A stretch of 64,000 bases of DNA from NCBI RefSeq assembly GCF_000701365.1, contig NZ_JNIK01000018.1, positions 186,001 to 250,000 on the forward strand, in the 5' to 3' direction. Positions 52,443 to 55,617 of the stretch are shown one piece after another (the first letter of the stretch is position 1; each line of letters starts with the position of its first letter). A model generated the notes under the pieces. The model was not told where the DNA came from, did no database searches, and saw only the letters and a list, made by a program, of their open reading frames with translations. Source of the DNA: Blastococcus sp. URHD0036. GTDB lineage: Bacteria > Actinomycetota > Actinomycetes > Mycobacteriales > Geodermatophilaceae. The position numbers were made by a program, and so were the translations under genes.

Positions 52443-52491
52443 GCGGGTCAGTCTGCCGGGCGCTCGTCGGCGCGGCCGCGGGGGCACTCCC

Positions 52492-52497
52492 TACCCT
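52492..52497 (+). promoter_or_regulatory. Leaderless promoter of the cysteine-rich protein gene
   Basis: A TACCCT hexamer lies 6 nt before the GTG at 52504, in the 61-base gap divergent from the ppx-type gene. The spacing fits leaderless transcription. Confidence 0.5.
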
Positions 52498-52503
52498 GGG
52501 TCC

Positions 52504-53367
52504 GTGCCGTACGAGGAGGTCCCCGGGGTCCCGGCCGAGGTCGACCCCGATCACGCCCGGGAGTGGCTGGAGTTCCCCGACCCGGCCGATCCGGGGCGGG
52601 TCGTGCGGGCCGACCTGACCTGGCTGAACTCCGCCTGGACGTGCGTCTTCGGCCGGGGGTGTGCCGGGGTGGTCGAGGGCCGGCCCGACGACGGCTGCTG
52701 CAGCCACGGCGCCTTCTTCAGCGAGGAGGACGACCTGCTGCGGGTCACCGCCGCCGTGGCCGAGCTCACCGACGAGGACTGGCAGCTGGCCCCCGTGGGC
52801 CGCGGCGACTGGACCGAGGCAGATGACGCCGAGGACGCCGAGGAGGGCGCCCGCTCCCTGCGCACGCGGCTGGTCGACGGCGCCTGCGTCTTCCTGAACC
52901 GGCCGGGCTTCCCCGGTGGGGCCGGCTGCGCCCTGCACCGGATGGCGCTGCGCGAGGACCTGCACCCGCTGACCACCAAGCCCGACGTCTGCTGGCAGCT
53001 GCCGGTGCGCCGGGAGCAGGAGCTGGTGGACCGCCCCGACGGCAGCCGGGTGCTCGTGACGACGCTCGGCGAGTTCGACCGCCGCGGATGGGGGCCCGGC
53101 GGAGCCGACCTGCACTGGTGGTGCAGCGGCTCACCGGTGGCGCACGTCTCGCCCGAGCCGATGGTGCTCACCTACGCCGCGGAGCTGACCGCGCTCATCG
53201 GCGCCCCGGCCTACGCCGAGCTCCGACGGCTGGCCGAGGCGCGCCTGGACCTCGGCATGGTGGCCCCGCACCCGGCCAGCCCACCGCCGCGGCGGCACCC
53301 CCGTCCGGTGACGCTGCAGGTCCGTCGTCCGGGTGTAATCGGCTCTGCCGAGCTCGGAGAGCCCTGA
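52504..53367 (+). CDS. Cysteine-rich conserved protein (Rv0495c-like)
   Basis: Protein of 287 residues with about eight cysteines clustered in the first two thirds: [44 protein letters not shown] and WWCSGS. The pattern suggests a metal or iron-sulfur site of the YkgJ kind, but I cannot assign it. The family is conserved next to ppx in actinobacteria. GTG start lies at the leaderless position after TACCCT. Confidence 0.8.
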
Positions 53368-53427: not shown

Positions 53428-55617
53428 GTGACCGAGGACCACGCGACCGCGGGTTCTCACTCGGCTCCCGCCCCACCGGGGGCGCCGTCCGACAGCGGCC
53501 TCCGGGGGCTCCTGCGCATCCCGGTCTTCCGCCGGCTGTGGCTGGCGGTCACCGTCTCCAGCTTCGGCGACTGGCTCGGCCTGCTGGCGACCACCGCGAT
53601 GGCCGCGCAGCTCACCCGCCAGGAGTCCCTGGCGGTGCAGGGCGCAGCCATCTCCGGCGTGATCCTGACCCGGCTGCTGCCCGACCTGCTGCTGGCACCC
53701 CTGGCGGGGGCGCTCGCCGACAAGCTCGACCGGCGGGTGACCGCGGTCGTCGGCGACCTGCTCGCGCTGGGCCTGTACCTCTCGATCGCCTTCACCTACG
53801 AGCTGACCTGGCTCTACGTCGCCCAGTTCCTGGTCGAGGCGGTCGGCCTGTTCACCAACCCGGCCAAGCAGGCCATGCAGGTGGCGATCGTCCCGCGCGA
53901 GAAGCTGGCGACGTCCAACCAGTTGATGCAGTTCTCCATCTACGGCGCGGTCCCGATCGCGGCGCTGGTCTTCGCGCTGCTGTCGACGCTGACCCGCGCG
54001 GTCTCCGACGGGCCCGGCGCCGAGCAGACGGCGATCGTCATCGCGCTGGTCTTCGACGCGCTGACCTACGGCGTCACGGCGGCCACCATCTTCCTGTCCC
54101 GGCACCTGCTGCCCGGACGGGCCGCCGGAGGCAGCGAGGGGACCAACGTCTTCTCGCTGATCGCCGAGGGGATCTCGTTCCTCCGGAGCCAGCCGAGCAT
54201 GCGCGCGTTGTACATCGGCACCGTCGGGGCGTTCGCCGCCGGCGGCCTGATCATCGGCGTCGCCCAGCTCTACATCGCCACGCTGGACGCCGGTCCGGCC
54301 GGCTACGGCATCCTCTTCGGCACCGTCTTCACCGGTCTGGCGCTGGGCATGCTGGTGGGCCCGCGCATCCTCCCGACGGTCCCGCGGCGCACCCTCTTCG
54401 GCCGCGCCATCGGCATGTCCGGCCTGGCGCTGCTGGCGATGTCGGTGCTGCAGGACTTCGTCCTGGCCACCGCGTCGGCCTTCCTCGTGGGGCTCTTCGC
54501 GGGGATGAGCTGGATCATCGGCTACACGCTGATCGGCCTGGAGGTCGAGGACCGCCTCCGCGGCCGGGTCTTCTCCTTCGTCGTCTCCTCCGTCCGCATC
54601 GTGCTGCTGCTCGCCGTGGCGGTCGGTCCGGGGCTCGCCGGCGTCCTCGGGTCCCACGAGATCCAGATCGGCGACCTGGTCTTCAGCGTCACCGGTCCCG
54701 GTCTGACGCTGCTGGTCGGCAGCGTGATCGCGTTGCTGGTCAGCGTGTACGCCACGCGGCAGGTGGCCCCCCGCCACCGGAGCGGCGCGAAGGACCTGCT
54801 GCGCCTGCTCTGGGGCAACTCCGACATCCTGACCGCCACCCCGCAGTCGGCCGGCCTCTTCCTCGTCGTGGAGGGCGCCGACCGGGAGCTGACCCGGCGG
54901 TACACCGAGGCGCTGGCCGACGTGGTCCGCGAGCGCGGCTGCCCCGTCGTCGTCACGTCCGAGCCCAGCGACACCGACCTGGGCCGCCGGGTCCGCCGCT
55001 TCCTGTACCCGCCGCGGCCCGCCGTGACCTCCCACGAGCCGGGCTGGCCGGCACCGGCCCCCCGCCCCGCACCCGGGGACGAGGACGAGGGCCCCCGCGT
55101 GGAGGTCTACACCGCGGCGCTGCTCGCGGCGGCCGACCGGGCCCAGCACGTCGCGACCGTCATCCGCCCGGCCATGGCCGGCCAGCAGGTGGTGATCAGC
55201 TCCCACTACGTCGACGCCTCGATCGCCTTCCACGGCGCCGGGCAGGGGCTGGACGCCGAGCGCATCCTCCGGACGTCGATGTGGGCCACCCGCGGCCTCC
55301 TCCCCGACCTCACCGTCGTCGTGGACGCGCCGGTCACCGAGGCCCCCGCCGACGCCGATCCGGACGCCGTCCGCCGCGCGTTCGTCGGCCGGGCCGATGC
55401 CGCGCCGGACCGCTACGTCGTCGTCGCCGGGGAGGAGCTCGACGCCGTCGCCCGGGAGACCGGCGTCGGCCTGGTCTCCCCGCTGGTGCGGCAGCGGGTC
55501 GGGACGCTGCTGGGCCTGCGCTTCGCCACCGGGGCACCGGTGCCCCCGGCCGCTCCCCCCGACGTCCCGGTGCCCCCGGTCGAGGTGCGCGAGGGCAGCC
55601 CCGCCGGTCGCCGCTGA
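53428..55617 (+). CDS. MFS transporter fused to a catalytically degenerate thymidylate kinase-like domain
   Basis: Protein of 729 residues. Residues 25-450 are a 12-helix major-facilitator transporter (SFGDWLGLLA, PLAGALADKLDRR). Residues 476-700 align along their length with thymidylate kinase: GLFLVVEG, VVVTSEPSDTDLGRRVR, ALLAAADRAQHVATVIRPAM, YVDASIAFHGAGQGL. The P-loop is absent (EGADRELTRR at 482-491 instead of EGGDGAGKST) and the DRY motif reads SHY (592-594). Streptomyces has a similar fusion with an intact kinase. Function unknown; possibly nucleotide-sensing transport. TACCCT at 53386-53391 is a possible -10. Confidence 0.85.
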   Translation: MTEDHATAGSHSAPAPPGAPSDSGLRGLLRIPVFRRLWLAVTVSSFGDWLGLLATTAMAAQLTRQESLAVQGAAISGVILTRLLPDLLLAPLAGALADKLDRRVTAVVGDLLALGLYLSIAFTYELTWLYVAQFLVEAVGLFTNPAKQAMQVAIVPREKLATSNQLMQFSIYGAVPIAALVFALLSTLTRAVSDGPGAEQTAIVIALVFDALTYGVTAATIFLSRHLLPGRAAGGSEGTNVFSLIAEGISFLRSQPSMRALYIGTVGAFAAGGLIIGVAQLYIATLDAGPAGYGILFGTVFTGLALGMLVGPRILPTVPRRTLFGRAIGMSGLALLAMSVLQDFVLATASAFLVGLFAGMSWIIGYTLIGLEVEDRLRGRVFSFVVSSVRIVLLLAVAVGPGLAGVLGSHEIQIGDLVFSVTGPGLTLLVGSVIALLVSVYATRQVAPRHRSGAKDLLRLLWGNSDILTATPQSAGLFLVVEGADRELTRRYTEALADVVRERGCPVVVTSEPSDTDLGRRVRRFLYPPRPAVTSHEPGWPAPAPRPAPGDEDEGPRVEVYTAALLAAADRAQHVATVIRPAMAGQQVVISSHYVDASIAFHGAGQGLDAERILRTSMWATRGLLPDLTVVVDAPVTEAPADADPDAVRRAFVGRADAAPDRYVVVAGEELDAVARETGVGLVSPLVRQRVGTLLGLRFATGAPVPPAAPPDVPVPPVEVREGSPAGRR

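Follow-up and report, generated by a model that had tools for sequence, protein, structure and literature searches.

An apparently inactive thymidylate kinase domain maintained on an MFS transporter in Geodermatophilaceae

Why would a membrane transporter keep a thymidylate kinase (TMK) domain whose catalytic residues are gone? TMK is a nucleotide kinase that cells need, and a single open reading frame of Blastococcus sp. URHD0036 joins a degenerate copy of it to an MFS carrier. The frame lies in the window, the whole 64,000-nucleotide stretch of DNA that was analyzed (contig NZ_JNIK01000018.1, positions 186,001 to 250,000). In window coordinates, its parts are as follows.

53428..55617, + strand: MFS transporter and degenerate TMK, fused; 729 aa, GTG start
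53515..54777, + strand: MFS part, aa 30-450 (Pfam, hydrophobic scan)
54778..54855, + strand: linker from the MFS part to the kinase-like domain, aa 451-476 (dN/dS 0.49)
54856..55497, + strand: pseudo-thymidylate-kinase domain, aa 477-690 (Pfam, constraint, domain model)
54871..54900, + strand: former P-loop EGADRELTRR, aa 482-491 (motif alignment)
55018..55098, + strand: clade-specific insert, aa 531-557 (no constraint seen, dN/dS 1.07)
55126..55128, + strand: Ala at aa 567, where active TMKs have Tyr/Phe for thymine stacking (alignment; role from PMC3619541)
55201..55209, + strand: SHY replacing the catalytic DR[FY], aa 592-594 (motif alignment)
55354..55413, + strand: site of the lost LID, aa 643-662 (alignment, constraint)
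55498..55614, + strand: variable C-terminal tail, aa 691-729 (dN/dS 0.82)

In Pfam, the fusion protein matches MFS_1 (PF07690; E 5.3e-15, 55.6 bits against a cut-off of 33.4), which places its N-terminal part in the MFS, as well as MFS_3 (PF05977; E 1.8e-7, 30.4 bits against 27). A crude scan of the MFS part finds 11 partly overlapping hydrophobic segments, compared with the MFS standard of 12 transmembrane helices. Thymidylate_kin (PF02223) is matched at E 5.9e-16 (59.1 bits, cut-off 27), and the arrangement in a single frame, MFS then TMK, is that of actinomycete MFS-TMK fusions. A preliminary description of the locus had the C-terminal third aligning with TMK along its length. The family match stands, but the best stretch covers profile positions 52-130 of 185 and the LID is missing. 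Against TIGR00041, the NCBI dTMP kinase equivalog, the whole protein reaches 61 bits and the domain alone 65.1, both below the cut-off of 83.25.

The catalytic motifs have been replaced just as that description read them, with EGADRELTRR at aa 482-491 and SHY at aa 592-594. The P-loop pattern GxxxxGK[ST] is absent from the fused domain, which reads GADRELTRR at the position of EGGEGAGKST in intact relatives. In these relatives, DR[FY] is followed by [VIT]D, and the fused domain has SHYVD (aa 592-596) instead. The LID with its basic residues is absent too, there being 8 residues (DADPDAVR) compared with 23 in the stand-alone TMK of the same genome. With the P-loop, the DR pair, and the LID all missing, the fused protein is probably catalytically inactive, and phosphoryl transfer would not be expected, as had been proposed. 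Across 30 sequences (28 from g1/g4 and 2 Blastococcus records), EGADR.LTRR shows no variation in EGADR and LT and, one free position aside, is elsewhere invariant or no less than 80% identical; locus L097, misaligned in the motif table, was excluded from the motif claims. A sequencing error or recent mutation is ruled out by this near-invariant change in 30 sequences and by the presence of the decayed fusion in 36 genomes.

The substrate site bears on the suggestion, also made in the preliminary description, that the domain may be a nucleotide sensor or a gate on the carrier. In the TMK of M. tuberculosis, Phe70 stacks on thymine and Arg95 contacts both ring and phosphate (PMC3619541). By the alignment made in this analysis, on which the residue equivalences rest, Ala stands at the Phe70 position and His at the Arg95 position in the window's clade, while R571, the Arg74 equivalent, is invariant in the 30 g1/g4-type sequences. 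Because the thymine-stacking aromatic and the substrate-binding arginine are also gone, dTMP sensing seems unlikely in this clade. It is less so in g7/g8, whose decayed fusions have lost the P-loop and LID and retain both the aromatic (LLYLADRAEH) and the arginine at the DRY position; those of g1/g4 have LLAAADRA[QE]H and HYVD. The three alignable decayed copies of g6 are far more eroded. A sensor or gate that still binds a nucleotide and controls the carrier would accord with R571, with the residues that persist in g7/g8, and with the TMK fold predicted below. The two substitutions in the window's clade, together with comparable losses in g64 of family f17, argue against it, and we consider it distinctly unlikely.

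The possibility that the fused domain is the only TMK of its genome is ruled out by a second PF02223 match, at C11. It is an intact stand-alone TMK with EGGEGAGKST, DRF, and the LID, and it answers the question of a separate tmk that the preliminary description had raised. This gene is placed in the order topA-tmk-holB, with at least one opposite-strand ORF between topA and tmk. In other genera, the topA-holB slot is occupied by the intact fusion (six wide-flank loci: L040, L043, L045, L051, L053, and L054). The window fusion is not between topA and holB, being flanked by ppx and an unnamed gene and by a DJ-1/AraC regulator. All 12 wide-flank loci of g1/g4, which come from 10 distinct records, show the order ppx, unnamed gene, decayed fusion, DJ-1/AraC regulator, regX3, senX3, and phoU, the last three being names assigned here to window genes. 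The gene 5' of the fusion (window 52486-53367, + strand) has no Pfam match and is kept beside the fusion in these 12 loci. A different arrangement is found in g7/g8 (L048, L049, and L050), where the decayed fusion lies directly upstream of tmk and holB. In L048 and L050, topA flanks it on the opposite side; in L049, topA is outside the view. In g6, the stand-alone TMK is between topA and holB and the decayed fusion is on other contigs.

Decay is not limited to a single strain, a point on which the preliminary description had made its case depend. Among 112 Geodermatophilaceae genomes, 36 carry the decayed fusion (3 in g1, 25 in g4, 4 in g6, 1 in g7, and 3 in g8) and 65 carry the intact type (22 in g2, 16 in g3, 1 in g5, 23 in g10, 1 in g11, 1 in g12, plus G061 of g4), and the two occur together in none of the 112. 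Named-record loci at 83-91% and 69% identity belong to Blastococcus, Trujillonella, and Geodermatophilus. A full-length stand-alone TMK is present in 34 of the 36 decayed-fusion genomes, with an intact P-loop in all 25 of those read; the two genomes in which none was detected are G068, which is 82% complete, and G074, where the gene is at a contig end. In the 65 intact-type genomes, the fusion is the sole full-length TMK match (that of G061, positions 1-110, is cut by a contig end). The sorting into intact and decayed used the P-loop pattern, so that the intact rows have a P-loop by construction; the claim for this class rests on all fusions fetched from the 65 genomes falling there, with GGEGAGKS in 48 of the 48 read. 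Nine genomes (g9) have a stand-alone TMK only, one of them, G082, as a partial match at a contig end, and two (G010 and G072) lack a PF02223 match. Neither fusion type is present in the g9 genomes (loci L055, L056, and L116-L118), and a scan of the topA-tmk region at two of these loci, L055 and L056, showed no transporter candidate. The exception in g4 is genome G061 (L096): the other 25 genomes of the genus carry the decayed fusion, whereas G061 lacks it and has an intact fusion that lies at a contig end. It is possibly a contaminant or misassigned.

Is the dead domain still under selection, or is it a passive relic in slow decay, retained merely through its fusion to a useful transporter? 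We calculated dN/dS by block for 30 decayed-fusion sequences, using the 396 of 435 pairs that fell inside the synonymous limits set and leaving repeat loci of one genome out of the codon counts; the ratios come from simple counting in high-GC genes, which we count against our main explanation. The MFS part has a value of 0.29 and the linker 0.49. Within the domain, aa 477-508, the block of the former P-loop, gives 0.40, and aa 509-530 gives 0.45, followed by the helix at aa 558-585, which at 0.21 is among the most constrained parts, the DRY block (aa 586-626, 0.30), the VVVD block (aa 627-642, 0.20), and the block of the former LID (aa 643-662, 0.27). The domain end, aa 663-690, is weakly constrained (0.64), and the insert (1.07) and tail (0.82) show little or no constraint. 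As the values of the core blocks are near that of the MFS part, unlike those of the insert and tail, most of the dead domain is maintained, yet less tightly than the TMK of intact fusions. For pairs at dS 0.15-1.2, the median is 0.50 for the pseudo-domain with its tail (637 pairs) versus 0.34 for its own MFS part (693 pairs), while it is 0.28 for the TMK of intact fusions and 0.41 for stand-alone TMKs. Three further sets were counted, with 21 of 21, 427 of 465, and 147 of 171 pairs used. In these, the active stand-alone TMKs of g1/g4 have a dN/dS of 0.29; the intact fusions of g2/g3 have 0.10-0.13 in the main TMK blocks and 0.27 after the LID; and g64 of f17 has 0.30-0.48 in the pseudo-domain blocks, 0.17 in the MFS part, and 0.77 in the tail.

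Slow passive decay would account for the relaxation relative to the TMKs of intact fusions, for the freely changing insert, tail, and domain end, and for the strong erosion of the alignable g6 copies. It fits poorly with most g1/g4 domain blocks being about as constrained as the MFS part, with the near-invariance, across 30 proteins, of the new sequence at the former P-loop, and with the retention of decayed domains in f17 and f4 as well, including the difference between domain blocks and tail in g64. We therefore regard a mere leftover as unlikely. The idea of the preliminary description that the enzyme part is kept as a fold agrees with this constraint and with structure prediction. AlphaFold2, run on the domain alone with six sequences, gives a mean pLDDT of 69 and a pTM of 0.69, and all 50 PDB matches listed by Foldseek for this model are thymidylate kinase entries (best E 5.6e-11), with TM-scores on the query of 0.58-0.67 among those listed. 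The fold of the pseudo-domain is thus predicted to be that of a TMK, and its sequence matches the chain sequence common to 4e5u and 4edh at E 1.8e-20. The full-length model (pLDDT 42) is too poor to show how the domain sits on the carrier.

Of 296 genomes of the class, that of the window included, 162 have a match to the fusion protein with an E-value of 1e-20 or lower; they represent 69 of the 115 genera. Fusions with an intact kinase, for which the preliminary description had pointed to Streptomyces, occur in many families of the class; in several f22 genomes of 1.2-1.4 Mb, the fusion is the sole PF02223 match. Locus L134 (f18) holds a fusion with a 1,095-aa open frame and an intact P-loop, its MFS part being so diverged that it matches at 71 bits.

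In f17, the P-loop position forms a series, with EGGEGSGKST in g32 (2 sequences), EGIDGAGKST and EGAEGAGRST in g46 (2), and, further along, EGAAGAGKTT, EGAVGAGTAT, and EGDTAAGAEG in g55 (5) and EGADATARAE-like sequences without a P-loop in g64 (7). The aromatic is Tyr in g32, Ala/Thr in g46, Asp in g55, and Ala/Thr in g64, and the DRY arginine is lost in g64 only, being His or Ser. Some P-loops are still intact in g46 and g55, where the aromatic is already gone, which we count against the main explanation; the order in f17 appears to be aromatic before P-loop, unlike that in the window's family. Several g55/g64 sequences (among L197-L208 and L216) have longer low-complexity stretches replacing the LID region.

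The second TMK in f17 and f4 is one that we take to be of the Mycobacterium type. As a stand-alone gene, it is present in f17 in 11 of 12 g46, 6 of 6 g55, and 8 of 8 g64 genomes, and absent from g32 (0 of 3), g135 (0 of 1), and g93 (0 of 1); the query used for it also matched, weakly, the window genome's own stand-alone TMK. In G325, the single f4 genome, the decayed fusion (L196) reads EGNTHFDTST and ERFVDS; L214 is a Mycobacterium-type TMK of this genome and L215 a further TMK-like gene. Both f3 genomes lack the Mycobacterium-type TMK, and their fusion is intact. To judge from these motifs, the fused domain decayed independently in f17 and in the one f4 genome, and catalytic loss accompanies another TMK in three lineages, namely the window's family, f17, and f4. 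Against a simple rule of decay with a second TMK, two weaker PF02223 matches are found in G184, an f3 genome. An extra TMK-like gene is not always tied to decay either, because intact fusions are kept in two g32 genomes with such a gene above the cut-off (92 and 95 bits) and in G012 and G023 of the window's family, each with a weak extra PF02223 match above the cut-off (35.5 bits, and 26.3 bits or 38.1 with neighbors).

TMKs are homodimers, and the dead domain could be a docking platform: by pairing with the active stand-alone TMK, it would hold that enzyme at the membrane, so that two polypeptides together restore the fused enzyme. Such pairing would suit the tight constraint on the aa 558-585 helix and the way in which decayed fusion plus stand-alone TMK substitutes for the intact fusion genome by genome, with no co-occurrence of the two fusions in the family. 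That the dead domain is also kept in f17 and f4, where the other TMK is of a distant type, argues against it, and we hold it to be very unlikely.

Trees built on per-genus subsets bear on the origin of the two fusion types (TMK tree of 82 rows by a quick method; MFS trees of 55 and 62 rows, the latter without L096, L097, L123, L126, L134, L135, and the NCBI-named records and with only 4 f17 rows). Decayed fusions form one side of a supported branch in both TMK and MFS trees. In the quick TMK tree, from which g6 was left out, the TMK domains of intact fusions form a group that includes the stand-alone TMKs of g1, g4, and g9, and the stand-alone TMKs of g7/g8 fall just outside it. Species trees (rpoB, without g6; topA+holB) place g7/g8 at the base, followed in the topA+holB tree by g6, and in both the genera with decayed and intact fusions are intermixed in a poorly resolved crown. 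For the MFS part, an AU test gives p 0.025 against a single clade of the family's decayed and intact fusions and p 0.55 after f3/f4 are added to that clade. Within-family duplication as the source of both types thus appears weakly disfavored. The separation of decayed from intact fusions is not revealed by the MFS trees, and this we also count against the main explanation.

That explanation, which we consider probable, is that another TMK took over catalysis and that the carrier kept the old domain in a structural or regulatory, no longer catalytic, role. The ancestor would be the MFS-TMK fusion that is widespread in families of Actinomycetes. In the window's lineage, a stand-alone TMK would have taken over dTMP phosphorylation; the fused domain would first have lost its P-loop and LID, the state seen in g7/g8, and later the aromatic and arginine of the dTMP site, as in g1/g4. 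The core may have been retained because the transporter depends on this cytosolic, non-catalytic domain to fold, to assemble, or to have its transport controlled. The sequences themselves show lost catalytic motifs, the presence of another TMK, a constrained core, and independent repeats, and the domain model has a TMK fold; from these we infer the inactivity of the protein, the order of decay in the window's family, and the service of the dead domain to the transporter, with its possible means. Because the domain is kept after catalytic loss in three lineages, the carrier may need the kinase fold for stability or control. In contrast, g9 has kept the kinase and carries neither type of fusion.

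Several known systems resemble this one. Pseudoenzymes, including pseudokinases, are a general class in which an enzyme fold is under selection without its catalytic residues; the window case differs in being a nucleoside-monophosphate kinase rather than a protein kinase, in its fusion to an MFS carrier, and in its repeated independent loss. The intact actinomycete MFS-TMK fusion (e.g., L040) has the same domain order and the same two families, with 36-42% identity over most of its length, but differs in its intact P-loop, DR[FY], and LID and in its topA-holB location in the six wide-flank loci. Bacterial TMKs (PF02223; e.g., 4edh of P. aeruginosa and 5x7j of T. thermophilus) have a fold in common with the model of the window domain, whereas that domain is without P-loop, catalytic DR pair, and LID and scores below the NCBI dTMP kinase cut-off. 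SCO3542 is a Streptomyces MFS-TMK fusion. The name SCO3542 appears in PMC3897704. Among the titles and abstract starts listed in searches of the open full-text literature, subscription papers lying outside it, none described a dead fused TMK under selection with repeated independent loss.

A broader proposal, which we put forward tentatively as a possibility, is that, after another TMK has become available, these fusions repeatedly turn into carriers with a dedicated pseudo-NMP-kinase domain that works in regulation or docking. If this is true, a need of the carrier for the kinase fold, independent of catalysis, would date back to the origin of the fusion. The fusions amount to a natural repeated experiment, in which a fused enzyme loses catalysis in separate lineages that have another TMK and the domain stays, and they open to testing the question of why so many actinomycetes have a nucleotide kinase attached to a membrane carrier.
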